Virus record (IMG/VR): IMGVR_UViG_3300023180_000232
Coordinates: 1 to 32,190 of that record
Reading direction: 5' to 3' (one strand)
Origin: a virus
Length of the DNA: 32,190 nucleotides
A model generated the notes under the pieces. The model had not been told where the DNA came from and made no database searches. It saw only the letters and a program-made list of their open reading frames with translations. Of this stretch, positions 8,169 through 27,845 are shown piece by piece. Both the position numbers and the translations under genes were made by a program. How positions within the stretch are numbered: position 1 is the stretch's first letter; each line of letters begins with the position of its first letter.

Positions 8169-8307
8169 GTTTCACTCAATGGTTGCCTTTCCCCCTAAAG
8201 GGAGGAAAAAGGGCAACATCTGAGTATTGAGCAAAAATGTTGCCTAATGTTGCCTATGTTGCCTATTCCGCAATCTAAACCATTGATAACAATAAACAAA
8301 ATGTTTC
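8169..8307. promoter_or_regulatory. Intergenic region with repeat cluster, AT-rich stretch and hairpin
   Basis: This 139-bp gap contains three tandem ATGTTGCCTA repeats, one inverted copy, an AT-rich patch (8283-8302), and a stem-loop TTTCC-CCCT/AGGGAGGAAA (about 8188-8206). The stem-loop lies in the presumed leader of the minus-strand gene starting at 8168. A weak minus-strand promoter (TTGTTT, 16 bp, TAGATT) would fall inside the AT-rich patch, between the repeat groups. The region could be a replication origin or an operator-rich promoter. Confidence 0.5.
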
Positions 8308-8374
8308 CTATAGGTTGCCAATGGTTGCCGTGCGCTTTAACGCCGATTTCAGATGTTGCCTAAGATGTTGCCTA
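8179..8374. repeat. Iteron-like cluster of 10-bp repeats, ATGTTGCCTA
   Basis: There are five exact copies on the plus strand, at 8237-8246, 8247-8256, 8256-8265, 8353-8362 and 8365-8374. Degenerate copies lie at 8179-8188, 8301-8310 (ATGTTTCCTA), 8312-8321 and 8321-8330. One inverted ATGTTGCC is at 8212-8219. Within groups the spacing is 9-12 bp, about one helical turn, so a protein could bind one face of the DNA. The last two copies are inside the 3' end of the HTH gene, where they encode a repeated RQHL. Iterons beside an AT-rich patch suggest a replication origin; an operator array is the alternative. Confidence 0.7.
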
Positions 8375-8727
8375 TTTTTATTTATCTTCTTTGCGTTCAA
8401 TAAAGTGGTAACTGAGATCGATAAAATCCTGCAAATTTCGCGTCTTGAGTGACCTTCTTGAGTTAATCTCTCAACATCTTCCAAAAACTTGCTTGGATCG
8501 ATAGGCAACCTTCCACCCATCCCATATCGGCAAATTGTGCCATTTACAGTGCGATTTATCTGGGGATATGTGATCGAGAATTGGAATGTGTCGCGCTGAT
8601 CTTGCTCGATGGAAACCTCTCGACCCGCCATTTGATTCCTATAAATTAGATCATCAGCAGCATCATCAATGGTTGGATACCAGCAAATCTCTTCGATCTG
8701 ATCTTGCAATTCTAGCTTATAAATCAT
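8308..8727 (-). CDS. Helix-turn-helix protein next to the repeat cluster
   Basis: A 139-aa protein of unknown family. Residues about 88-115 (FLEDVERLTQEGHSRREICR, then ILSISVTTLLNAKK) form a likely helix-turn-helix. The N-terminal part (YKLELQDQIEEICWYPTIDD, FQFSITYPQINRTVNG) is probably a small alpha/beta domain. The 3' end of the gene overlaps the iteron cluster. A protein that binds the repeats, as initiator or autoregulator, would fit, but this is inference. It starts 3 bp after the stop of the small membrane protein gene, so it belongs to the same transcript. Confidence 0.6.
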   Translation of the reverse strand: MIYKLELQDQIEEICWYPTIDDAADDLIYRNQMAGREVSIEQDQRDTFQFSITYPQINRTVNGTICRYGMGGRLPIDPSKFLEDVERLTQEGHSRREICRILSISVTTLLNAKKINKNRQHLRQHLKSALKRTATIGNL

Positions 8728-8730
8728 GCT

Positions 8731-8946
8731 CTATTCTCTCCCTTCGAGCGTTACAAATACCCGGCGCAAAACATATGACCGAGCCATTGATAAAACAAAG
8801 TAGCAGGCTGTTATCCATGTTGCTTCGAGCATCGATGGCTCCAATCCAAACAACGGCAAGCATAGATAAGTGAATAGCCAAGAAACCAGCAAACCGATGA
8901 TGGCATTGGCTTTAGCTTCGATGAAGCTCATTCTCCGGCTTTGCAT
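8731..8946 (-). CDS. Small two-helix membrane protein (DUF7220-like)
   Basis: This 71-aa protein has a basic N-terminus (MQSRRMSFIEAKANAIIG) and two hydrophobic helices at about 15-36 and 44-58. It ends with the basic motif RSYVLRRVF. This layout matches a family of small phage membrane proteins (DUF7220 as I recall it) of unknown role. The ATG overlaps the stop of the upstream gene (TAATG), which indicates translational coupling. It would sit in the inner membrane. Nothing shows whether it acts in lysis, superinfection exclusion or elsewhere. Confidence 0.65.
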   Translation of the reverse strand: MQSRRMSFIEAKANAIIGLLVSWLFTYLCLPLFGLEPSMLEATWITACYFVLSMARSYVLRRVFVTLEGRE

Positions 8947-9197
8947 TATTTCTCTTCTTCGAGCTTTTGTTGCAGATAGGTTTCGATGCTAATTCGACGT
9001 TTCTCAGCAGCCGCTTCTGCGCGATTAAATGCCTCGACTGATAGCGTTAATCGAACCTGTATGCGACGCCTTAATGACCCACGCCTGCAAGCCCTAACTC
9101 GAACACTGGCCTCGTTGCAGCCCAGCATGATCGCAATATCTTTTGGGTGATAACCCGCACCAATTAGATCATCGATCTTTTGTGTGTCGTTACTCAT
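8946..9197 (-). CDS. Small HTH DNA-binding protein
   Basis: 83 aa. I chose ATG 9197 because it forms an ATGA overlap with the stop of the SleB-type gene; an upstream ATG at 9365 would add residues that merely shadow that gene. Residues about 9-35 (DDLIGAGYHPKDIAIMLGCN, then EASVRVRACRRG) form a helix-turn-helix of the sigma-region-4/MerR style. A ribbon-helix-helix-like C-terminus follows (QVRLTLSVEAFNRAEAAAEK, then ISIETYLQQKL). The second half could dimerise as in Arc/MetJ-type repressors. It is a candidate early regulator, and the only one here with two plausible DNA-binding motifs. Confidence 0.65.
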   Translation of the reverse strand: MSNDTQKIDDLIGAGYHPKDIAIMLGCNEASVRVRACRRGSLRRRIQVRLTLSVEAFNRAEAAAEKRRISIETYLQQKLEEEK

Positions 9198-9577
9198 CGA
9201 CGTAACTCCAAATAGAAAATGTGAGTGCCGACTTGCTCGATCTTCTGCATCTTTGGTGACGATGCCCACCCTGGTTGCACCCACTCTGCATGGTAATGCG
9301 TAGCGCCCATATTCTCCCAGGGAGTATCGAAGGCTTCTTGAACTACGCGCATTGAGCGTTCCCATGCCTTGCGCTCTCTAGGCTTGTCGCTCTTACCATC
9401 CCAATAAAATGAGAAAGCGTTGCGCTGCTTTACGACAGAGCAAGCGTCATCTGGAAAGCCACTATGATTCACTCGGTTTTTAATGACATGAACGATTTGG
9501 CGTTGCGCCTCTTCCGGCTCTGAGCGGCTCTCGAAATAAACCGCAAGAGCATAACAAACAAAAGCTGCTTCCAACAT
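9194..9577 (-). CDS. Cell wall hydrolase, SleB-type
   Basis: This 127-aa protein covers the Hydrolase_2 (SleB) catalytic domain. It has ALAVYFESRSEP with the conserved Glu16, then VIKNRVNHSGFPDDACSVV, NAFSFYWDG, GATHYHAEWVQPGW and the closing VGTHIFYLE. SleB-type enzymes cleave peptidoglycan glycan strands as lytic transglycosylases. I see no signal peptide; residues 4-14 are mildly hydrophobic. It lies in the early region, far from the lysis block and the GH24 lysozyme. It could be a second endolysin, a host wall remodeller, or a virion-associated enzyme. A GGGAGAGA ribosome binding site precedes the ATG. Confidence 0.85.
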   Translation of the reverse strand: MLEAAFVCYALAVYFESRSEPEEAQRQIVHVIKNRVNHSGFPDDACSVVKQRNAFSFYWDGKSDKPRERKAWERSMRVVQEAFDTPWENMGATHYHAEWVQPGWASSPKMQKIEQVGTHIFYLELRR

Positions 9578-9655
9578 TTAATCTCTCCCGTATTTGTTGG
9601 ATGGCGTCTCAAAAAGACTAATTAAAACCTCGATCAATGCAAGAAAATTATTCAT
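9578..9655 (-). CDS. Possible 25-aa peptide between early genes
   Basis: A short frame fits exactly between the 74-aa gene and the SleB gene. Its ATG (9655) follows the upstream stop by 2 nt and its TAA directly abuts the SleB ATG. The peptide starts MNNFLALIEVLISLFE, an amphipathic hydrophobic helix, and ends with a polar tail. The tight packing hints at coupled translation, but no ribosome binding site is visible and the length is near chance. Confidence 0.3.
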   Translation of the reverse strand: MNNFLALIEVLISLFETPSNKYGRD

Positions 9656-9657
9656 TG

Positions 9658-9882
9658 TTAAGCTAACTTGTCAGCAAGTACTTTAAGCAATGTTTGCTTC
9701 GTCCAAGCTTTGCAAATCATTTTTGGAACTTCCCCACTTGTATCCCTGGCAACCCAATCAGAAGCTCCACCACCTTTTGTTACAGTGATATGCTCGAAGC
9801 CCTTAACACACCATTCAGCGTGAGCAGTACCGAATCCGTTTCCGAGCCATTCAGTTGAGCTTACCTTGGTTAATTTAAGCAT
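9658..9882 (-). CDS. Small early protein behind a CtrA-type box
   Basis: A 74-aa protein I do not recognise. It is rich in Lys, Gly and Trp (SSTEWLGNGFGTAHAEW, VTKGGGASDWVARD) and probably forms a small beta-rich fold with a C-terminal helix (WTKQTLLKVLADKLA). It has an AGGGAGAAA ribosome binding site and its own promoter region with the palindrome at 9906-9922. As the first gene of a minus-strand unit after a terminator, it is likely expressed early. The function is unknown. Confidence 0.6.
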   Translation of the reverse strand: MLKLTKVSSTEWLGNGFGTAHAEWCVKGFEHITVTKGGGASDWVARDTSGEVPKMICKAWTKQTLLKVLADKLA

Positions 9883-9905
9883 TTGATTTCTCCCTTGTTG
9901 ATGAT

Positions 9906-9922
9906 GTTAATCTAATATTAAC
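9906..9922. promoter_or_regulatory. 17-bp palindromic operator GTTAAT-N5-ATTAAC (CtrA-type box), copy 1
   Basis: This perfect inverted repeat lies 24 bp upstream of ATG 9882. Its proximal half-site, read as GTTAAT on the minus strand, is placed as a -10 element 16 bp from a TTGCCT -35-like hexamer (9944-9939). The element contains TTAA-N7-TTAAC, the published full-site consensus for the alphaproteobacterial response regulator CtrA. An identical palindrome with a different spacer occurs upstream of 10422. Confidence 0.75.
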
Positions 9923-9970
9923 AAACAGGGATTGCAATAGGCAAAAGCAAAAAAAGTGAAAAAAAAGTAA

Positions 9971-9997
9971 AAAAAAAGAGGGGACCGAAATCCCCCC
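9971..9997 (-). terminator. Rho-independent terminator after the two small early genes
   Basis: Read on the minus strand, a GGGGA/TCCCC stem with a 6-nt loop (9995-9980) is followed by TCTTTTTTT (9979-9971). It lies 11 bp after the stop of the 63-aa gene. It would separate the transcript starting above 10422 from the one starting at about 9915. The stem is short but the U-tract is strong. Confidence 0.65.
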
Positions 9998-10006
9998 TTA
10001 ATCCTC

Positions 10007-10198
10007 TCAAGCTTCGTTCATTTTAAGAGCGCGCCGCAATACTCGATCACGCTCTGATTGCTTCAAGCTAGAAATCACATTCAGCACTTTGATCGCATAT
10101 TGCCTCTCATGCTCTGCGAGGAATGTGTATTTCTTAGGCTTCGATAGACCCATCTTTTTGATGGTCTCTGGATCTAGATCTTCGATGTTTAAACTCAT
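10007..10198 (-). CDS. Small early helical protein, unknown function
   Basis: A 63-aa charged protein that looks entirely helical. It begins MSLNIEDLDPETIKKMGLSK and continues with HERQYAIKVLNVISSLKQSE and RDRVLRRALKMNEA, with no cysteines. It follows the 70-aa gene after an 11-bp gap and precedes a terminator, so the two small genes form one unit. Small, highly charged first-expressed phage proteins often act on host machinery, but nothing here identifies a target. Confidence 0.6.
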   Translation of the reverse strand: MSLNIEDLDPETIKKMGLSKPKKYTFLAEHERQYAIKVLNVISSLKQSERDRVLRRALKMNEA

Positions 10199-10209
10199 TA
10201 TTTCTTCCC

Positions 10210-10422
10210 TTATTCAACGTCGATTTGTTCGACAGTAAAAATCACATCATCAGCAGCAAAGAATGTTGAATAAAACCTGTTCATTTCAGTTTTAACAACG
10301 CCACCATGCTCTTTGTTGATGAGGTCAATCACAACGGTAATGGCTTTTTGACGGCCAGAATAATGACCGTGTGTGATGCCATATTCGCCTTTATTGGACA
10401 TTATTTTATAAACGTACTTCAT
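10210..10422 (-). CDS. Small early protein behind the second CtrA-type box
   Basis: A 70-aa protein with no family that I recognise. It begins MKYVYKIMSNKGEYGITHGH, then GRQKAITVVIDLINKEHGG, and ends RFYSTFFAADDVIFTVEQID. This suggests a small alpha/beta fold with a central helix. It has a CGGGAGAAA ribosome binding site and is the first gene of the leftward unit starting at the promoter near 10489-10461. Its short length and promoter position suggest an early host-interaction protein; this is inference. Confidence 0.6.
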   Translation of the reverse strand: MKYVYKIMSNKGEYGITHGHYSGRQKAITVVIDLINKEHGGVVKTEMNRFYSTFFAADDVIFTVEQIDVE

Positions 10423-10449
10423 TTTCGATTTCTCCCGTTATCGATAATT

Positions 10450-10466
10450 GTTAATACAAAATTAAC
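10450..10466. promoter_or_regulatory. 17-bp palindromic operator GTTAAT-N5-ATTAAC (CtrA-type box), copy 2
   Basis: This perfect inverted repeat lies 28 bp upstream of ATG 10422. On the minus strand its distal half-site GTTAAT (10466-10461) sits exactly 17 bp after TTGACG (10489-10484), so it coincides with the -10 of a well-spaced promoter. Binding here should block RNA polymerase. It has the same 12 fixed bases as copy 1, with a different spacer. Confidence 0.75.
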
Positions 10467-10489
10467 ATTATCCTGTAAATAGACGTCAA
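10461..10489 (-). promoter_or_regulatory. Early leftward promoter
   Basis: TTGACG (10489-10484), a 17-bp spacer and GTTAAT (10466-10461) form a sigma70-like promoter for the two small genes at 10210-10422 and 10007-10198. Transcription would start near 10454. The -10 overlaps half of the palindromic operator. The -10 match is imperfect (GTTAAT against TATAAT), which is compatible with regulated use. Confidence 0.5.
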
Positions 10490-10571
10490 CGAAAAAATTT
10501 CACTTTTTTGCAATTATTTTTTATGCATCGATTTAAGTTGCTGATATTGTGTCGAAAACTGGAGAGAAAAA

Positions 10572-10871
10572 ATGTCAAAATGGACCGCTGTAGCGTTTAG
10601 ATCACCAGCAACCGACAATGTTTGGATTGCTTACAACAAACCCGAAACCGTCTCGAAAGCCACAATCGACGCATATATCCGAGCCGACAAAGCTGGTCAT
10701 ATCTGGTTGATGCATCGCAGAGTCGGGAAGATGGGAATGAATTATTTTGAGTTGGTTATTCGGGATAGAAAGAAAGTGGCCCGCCCCAAGGTTCACGGGA
10801 GAGGAACAACCAAGGGACGGGCGCGATCAGTCGAAGCGCCAGGGAAGGAAACGCTCGACCGATTACATTAA
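10572..10871 (+). CDS. Small basic plus-strand protein, unknown
   Basis: A 99-aa protein, divergent from the early leftward unit, with a GGAGAGAAAAA ribosome binding site. The N-terminal half (KWTAVAFRSPATDNVWIAY, HIWLMHRRVGKMGMNYFELV) is predicted beta-rich with a helix at about 30-42. The last 35 residues are basic and disordered (KKVARPKVHGRG, KGRARSVEAPGK), which suggests nucleic-acid binding. Its end overlaps the primase-helicase gene by 4 bp in a convergent layout. A weak promoter (TTGCAA at 10508-10513, 17 bp, ATTTAA) precedes it. I cannot assign a function. Confidence 0.6.
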   Translation: MSKWTAVAFRSPATDNVWIAYNKPETVSKATIDAYIRADKAGHIWLMHRRVGKMGMNYFELVIRDRKKVARPKVHGRGTTKGRARSVEAPGKETLDRLH

Positions 10872-27225: not shown

Positions 27226-27845
27226 GAAATTACTTCGACTGCTGGAAATGTTACACCAAACACCGATGCTTCATTGATCGACCAGTTTATTTCGTTAGTC
27301 GATAATCTGAATAAGCCTTTAGCTGCATCAACTGTAACTGTCGCGTTATCTGCTGGCGATGATCGAAGCTCCGGCCATATCTCAAGAGTTGTAGCCCCAA
27401 AGCTATCAGTCGTTGCATCTTTCGTAACTTTATAAAGCTGGCTACTAGCTCCACTGCCAAGCTGAATATAATCGCCTCGCGCCAACCATTTTGATTGATT
27501 GGTTGTGCAACCATCGATGGTTAAAGCATCACCCGTTTGATCTGCACCTCGAACTATTGGAGTTCCGCCACCTTCACCGATTGGAGATGTTGCAAGTGGA
27601 TCACCAAGCAAGAAAGTGCCTGATCGACCTCGAAGCGAAAGTAACCAGCCAACCCAATTTTCTGCATCAGATCGCTTCATTGGAGGAAGGCTAATTTCTG
27701 CTTCCCAGCGTTGACCAGGGTGAACAACCACTTGTTGCCGATAAGTAAATGGACTCATAGTCATCGATGTAACTTGAACCGCTCTCAGATCGATCTTAGC
27801 GATGCCAGTGTGCGTTGGAAGGTCGAGAGGATAGGTGATAGCCAT
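27222..27845 (-). CDS. Distal tail protein, gpM-like
   Basis: 207 aa, immediately downstream of the tape measure (TAATG overlap), which is the place of gpM or the distal tail protein. TYRQQVVVHPGQRWEAEISL, then RSDAENWVGWLLSLRG and TFLLGDPLATSP, is typical of phage distal tail proteins that recognise the end of the tape measure. The C-terminal half is a beta domain (IQLGSGASSQLYKVTKDATT to NWSINEASVFGVTFPAVEV). It would link the tail tube to the J-like tip. Confidence 0.75.
   Translation of the reverse strand: MAITYPLDLPTHTGIAKIDLRAVQVTSMTMSPFTYRQQVVVHPGQRWEAEISLPPMKRSDAENWVGWLLSLRGRSGTFLLGDPLATSPIGEGGGTPIVRGADQTGDALTIDGCTTNQSKWLARGDYIQLGSGASSQLYKVTKDATTDSFGATTLEIWPELRSSPADNATVTVDAAKGLFRLSTNEINWSINEASVFGVTFPAVEVIS

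Follow-up and report, generated by a model that had tools for sequence, protein, structure and literature searches.

Two copies of the palindrome GTTAAT-N5-ATTAAC lie within 0.56 kb of sequence in the window, i.e., the whole analyzed stretch of 32,190 bases from an IMG/VR virus record, and both are followed by leftward genes (Table 1). These genes form two units. Unit A comprises a 70-aa and a 63-aa gene and ends in a terminator-like hairpin, which separates it from unit B, so that each unit has one palindrome. Unit B contains a 74-aa gene, a 25-codon frame, a cell wall hydrolase, an 83-aa protein, a 71-aa protein that is membrane-bound by appearance, and a 139-aa helix-turn-helix (HTH) protein. 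The 74-aa protein has a 47% homologue in Roseobacter phage CRP-902 and weak ones in giant phages of Caulobacter, CcrSC among them.

Table 1. Features at the palindrome locus (window coordinates).
Feature	Position	Strand	Remarks
HTH protein, 139 aa; second candidate regulator	8308..8727	-	C-terminal HTH (HTH_7, E 6.7e-5)
DNA-binding candidate, 83 aa; favored regulator	8946..9197	-	HTH-like N-terminus; predicted strand-helix-helix C-terminus
Cell wall hydrolase	9194..9577	-	Hydrolase_2, E 2.4e-22
Unit B gene 1, 74 aa	9658..9882	-	homologues in Roseobacter phage CRP-902 and giant Caulobacter phages
Palindrome copy 1, GTTAATATTAGATTAAC on the minus strand	9906..9922	-	exact match; also present in near-identical L012; proposed operator of unit B
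Terminator-like hairpin and T run, between unit A and copy 1	9976..9999	-	
Unit A gene 2, 63 aa	10007..10198	-	weak Plasmid_stab_B match, E 0.0025
Unit A gene 1, 70 aa	10210..10422	-	no family match; 93% homologue in L093 behind a different promoter
Divergent intergenic region, with copy 2 and the putative leftward promoter	10423..10571	.	four-lineage alignment
Palindrome copy 2, GTTAATTTTGTATTAAC on the minus strand	10450..10466	-	exact match; orthologous element in L004, L095, and L101; proposed operator of unit A
Divergent 99-aa gene, far side of the copy 2 promoter region	10572..10871	+	conserved in relatives

The tailed-phage genes of the window include those for a lambda-family portal, a terminase, a GTA-type holin, and a phage lysozyme. 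A reading frame that contains prohead protease and capsid domains (2-2062) is truncated at the left end, and the record may for this reason be a circularly permuted, nearly complete genome. No integrase was recognized among the window proteins scanned, which represent part of the genes. The closest named isolates, by terminase (55-58%) and tail protein (up to 40%), are the Roseobacter phages CRP-406, -811, -821, -822, -823, and -831; a near-identity search of the first 25 kb of the window against phage records gave no match. Nearly all members of the CRP-822-type family are without an integrase, and their predicted hosts include Roseobacteraceae, SAR11, SAR86, KI89A, and Flavobacteriales (PMC12629253). 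A comparison of the primase with genome contigs returned only distant matches, in unrelated bacteria. GANTC is strongly depleted over the whole window (0.28 of expectation), with ratios of 0.34-0.37 in the relatives L004, L095, and L101, 0.04 in contig L093, and 0.00-0.03 in the roseophages CRP-821, -811, and -406 (L108-L110 compared), a depletion that would suit a CcrM-bearing alphaproteobacterial host. TCGA occurs at about twice its expected frequency (1.9-2.1) in the window and the same three relatives, and shows no excess in the roseophage relatives (0.6-0.9).

Occurrence and conservation of the palindrome

The initial annotation located the two palindromes correctly, at positions where both are exact matches, and described them as identical 17-bp elements; the arms are indeed the same, but the spacers differ (CTAAT vs. 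ACAAA), and the gaps to the start codons measure 23 and 27 bases rather than 24 and 28. Its chance expectation of 0.004 agrees with our values of 0.0036 from base composition and 0.0032 from an order-2 model. A scan of the window at zero or one mismatch revealed no site besides this pair. Nor does TTAA-N7-TTAA occur in the window outside the two palindromes. This shorter pattern is not enriched by itself (2 seen, 0.86 expected, with at least 2 in 24 of 100 shuffles), and the weight therefore comes from the complete palindrome and from where it sits. The inverted repeats with arms of six bases and spacers of 0-12 number 81, and GTTAAT-N5 is the sole combination of arm and spacer seen twice among them, the other repeat listed twice (TGTTAA, spacer 7) being the same two sites moved one base outward.

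Protein and pattern searches identified the element in four lineages, namely the window with its near-copy L012, L004 (GTTAAAGTAAGATTAAC, one mismatch), L095 (GTTAATCCGATATTAAC), and L101 (GTTAATTTTGTATTAAC). Few relatives were available because the collections searched contain little of this lineage. When the pattern was combined with a ribosome-binding site, ten contigs matched, of which L094, L096, L097, L099, L102, and L103 were dropped on sequence context only. In L004, L095, and L101, as at copy 2 of the window, the element has the divergent 99-aa gene on one side and the hydrolase operon on the other, and the genes directly behind it differ among the four. Conservation at the same promoters in related phages had been named in the initial annotation as a point on which its proposal could fail, and three further lineages do have the palindrome at this divergent promoter, with one element per locus in the relatives and two in the window. 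In the four-lineage alignment of the copy 2 locus, 11 of the 12 arm positions are invariant, compared with 0 of 5 in the spacer and 16 of the nearest 40 upstream; the difference between arms and spacer corresponds to p = 0.001, a figure that takes the sequences as unrelated though the lineages are kin. Taken as a whole, the palindrome is very probably a conserved regulatory binding site.

The region downstream of the palindrome promoter is a variable cassette spot (window 9583-10422, L004 6641-6760, L095 9611-9960, and L101 8226-9191), which holds lineage-specific small genes or none, followed by the 25-codon frame and the cell wall hydrolase. The leader CGATAAGGGGAGAAATCGAAATG occurs twice in L095, as if a gene had been inserted together with its leader. 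We considered that the palindrome moves with, or is tied to, its downstream gene, and rejected this, as the L093 homologue of the 70-aa gene and the CRP-902 homologue of the 74-aa gene are both without it, and L004, L095, and L101 carry other genes after it.

Promoter placement and candidate regulators

By eye, the alignment places a TTGAC[GT] hexamer 8-9 bases ahead of the palindrome in L004, L095, and L101, and with a spacer of 17-18 bases a -10-like hexamer then falls on the right arm or overlaps it. The same layout was seen by eye in the window, with TTGCAA 9 bases before copy 1 and TTTACA 7 bases before copy 2; a simple consensus promoter scan did not report these by-eye hexamers. For copy 2, the initial annotation had taken GTTAAT as the -10 element with TTGACG 17 bp upstream. 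This arrangement exists and is a possible promoter, but the position of TTGAC in the relatives, at 8-9 bp, indicates that the -10 element lies on the other arm. Under either choice of putative hexamers, the palindrome would overlap the promoter core. Its position between -35-like and -10-like hexamers fits repression.

Two proteins of unit B were considered as the regulator. The 83-aa protein gives weak but consistent matches to HTH-type profiles (D5-like regulator, 1e-4; others about 0.01) in all four lineage members, and its predicted secondary structure is E45-53, H54-66, H71-81. It had no ribbon-helix-helix match by family, sequence, or fold, and none of the structural neighbors of its model were significant. 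The protein is present in four of the four palindrome lineages, with 64-76% identity to the window version; among viral contigs, no remoter relatives were found outside these lineages, and no homologue was detected in L093. The 139-aa HTH protein is equally conserved across the four lineages and has a 34% homologue in L093. A phage-encoded regulator, with the 83-aa protein as a better candidate than the 139-aa protein, is favored by these comparisons with fair confidence, though L093 is a single contrast that differs in much else.

The contig L093 (IMGVR_UViG_3300021958_000454) carries its 93% identical homologue of the 70-aa gene as the second gene behind a promoter that has a different palindrome, TTGACCAG-N4-CTGG; this element lies at 9687-9702 and 10223-10238, before two small genes. 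Because CCAG-N4-CTGG is not rarer than chance in this locus, the element call is based on the recurrence of the 16-mer and on where it lies; it is probably L093's own operator. The CRP-902 homologue of the 74-aa gene, in turn, lies behind yet another shared element and is without the GTTAAT palindrome, so that the latter follows the phage lineage and not the gene. In CRP-902 (L121:2130-2500), the adjacent small genes gp08 and gp07 share an upstream ACTTGCAAT, with CATATAT farther down. One element per phage lineage is what would be expected of lineage-specific regulator/operator pairs, and the few genomes compared suggest such a pattern.

Weighing host CtrA against a phage regulator

CtrA control over phage promoters is already known: in vB_BsubS-Delta, phiCbK, and Cp1R7A-A1, CtrA binds promoters, with either repression or activation as the outcome (PMC9437464). 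For Dinoroseobacter, the consensus site is TTAAC-N5-GTTAAC (PMC7232146), and sites sharing TTAA only are tolerated by CtrA (PMC3692519). In Caulobacter, the full motif starts near -35 in CtrA-activated promoters, and sites near -10 repress (PMC4287350). As a yardstick, we used 21 TTAA-N7-TTAA sites, most of them predicted from sequence (all of those of CcrColossus included): 3 in the initial 10.3 kb of phiCbK, 12 in the initial 17 kb of CcrColossus, and 6 in the Delta gap. The Delta gap has a published length of 1,312, with 30 TTAA and 12 canonical sites, and the exact search used here finds 6. Sphingobium phage Lacusarx was left out because TTAA-N7-TTAA is absent from its first 17 kb. In the yardstick, the inner base is C on 38 of 42 arms (TTAAC-N5-GTTAA), with at least one inner C in each site.

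The initial annotation proposed that the host CtrA governs the window promoters, pointing to TTAA-N7-TTAAC within the element. That loose consensus is matched by all five copies in promoter regions, including the one in L004, whose single change hits a base outside the CtrA requirement. However, the inner C/G is missing from all ten arms of this group (T on nine, A on one), and the placement is unlike that of CtrA-activated promoters. CtrA~P bound at these sites would repress, or less likely activate, both promoters, and would tie the small genes and the hydrolase to the host cell state, in line with the proposal of “lytic deferment.” Such repression and activation have been shown experimentally in other phages (PMC9437464), the relatives infect roseobacters, and the GANTC depletion agrees with an alphaproteobacterial host. 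A CtrA half-site, TTAACCAT, occurs once elsewhere in the window, at 27517. Nonetheless, no dense array of sites in a gap or terminal repeat was found, there being two sites in the 32-kb window and one per relative locus, and TTAA-N7-TTAA is absent from the 22-23 kb read of the roseophages CRP-821, -811, and -406. We consider control by CtrA unlikely. A specific form of it, in which the CRP-822-related lineage would use a variant CtrA box that is AT-rich, fully symmetric, and placed between -35 and -10, with CtrA repressing the hydrolase unit in some cell states, seems slightly less likely still. The conserved bases of the element do not demand CtrA, and a two-fold symmetric dimer would directly explain the whole GTTAAT arm. 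A different host regulator, e.g., of the MarR or LysR class, that recognizes a symmetric site of the GTTAAT type is less likely again: the dyad would suit many dimeric regulators, but a literature search for the motif identified none, and the element tracks the phage lineage while related phages use different repeated elements. A chance palindrome, or a mere AT-rich promoter fragment, might be suggested by the 27-30% G+C of the region and by the unenriched TTAA-N7-TTAA pattern; it is very improbable, given two exact matches where about 0.003 are expected and conservation of the arms but not the spacer in four lineages.

The alternative that the initial annotation had offered, a phage repressor operator with the 83-aa protein as candidate, is better supported by the full symmetry, the four-lineage conservation, and the co-occurrence of the protein. 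We consider it somewhat more probable than not that the palindromes are operators bound by a phage-encoded dimeric regulator, most likely the 83-aa protein. The arms lie one helical turn apart with full two-fold symmetry, and they are conserved while the spacer is free; the genome has two copies, one per unit with a terminator-like hairpin between; and all copies overlap the putative promoter core. In addition, the 83-aa protein is found in all four palindrome lineages and is undetected in L093, which has a different palindrome, HTH-type matches occur in all four members, and the inner positions are unlike those of CtrA sites. Counting against this reading are the weakness of the HTH matches and the mutual relatedness of the four lineages, and it would make the TTAA-N7-TTAAC match a coincidence.

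From the observed sites, their conservation, the layout of the units, and the co-occurrence with the 83-aa protein, we infer the promoter hexamers, binding, repression, autoregulation, and the preference for the 83-aa over the 139-aa protein. In such a phage-encoded system, a dimer bound between the -35-like and -10-like elements of the leftward promoter would block RNA polymerase. The copy 2 operator would govern unit A, with its two small genes up to the terminator, and the copy 1 operator would govern unit B, comprising the 74-aa gene, the hydrolase, the regulator itself, the second HTH protein, and probably further genes. Expressed from unit B, the regulator would shut both promoters upon accumulating (negative autoregulation), so that the units would be kept low or confined to one infection stage.

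Comparison with known systems

Phage repressor operators of the lambda OR/OL type overlap core promoters. The window resembles these in having a 17-base palindrome whose arms are one turn apart and which recurs at coordinated promoters, overlapping the putative RNA polymerase contacts, and a small candidate DNA-binding protein encoded in the same genome. By contrast, the window candidate is not a recognized cI/Cro-type repressor, no integrase was recognized, and there are two single operators at separate units instead of a cooperative cluster. L093 likewise has a lineage-specific palindrome repeated before two small genes, beside a homologous gene, but its palindrome is unrelated in sequence and overlaps a -35-like hexamer, and the contig has a tyrosine-integrase-like gene (8277-9326, named by eye).

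The CtrA-controlled promoters of phiCbK, vB_BsubS-Delta, and Cp1R7A-A1 (PMC9437464) share with the window a TTAA-N7-TTAA before small genes of unknown function. They differ in that the inner bases of the candidate sites in the window are T/A and not C/G, and in that the window has a single site at each promoter, two in all, between the -35-like and -10-like elements. The comparison suggests that matching TTAA-N7-TTAA is by itself a weak test of CtrA control in phages, and the inner C/G sets CtrA-linked phage sites apart from the look-alike in the window. If CtrA binding were nevertheless true, host-state control would reach another phage lineage and a cell wall hydrolase unit. With a phage-encoded regulator, the locus would offer a small, conserved candidate operator and a candidate regulator for phages related to an abundant marine roseophage family.
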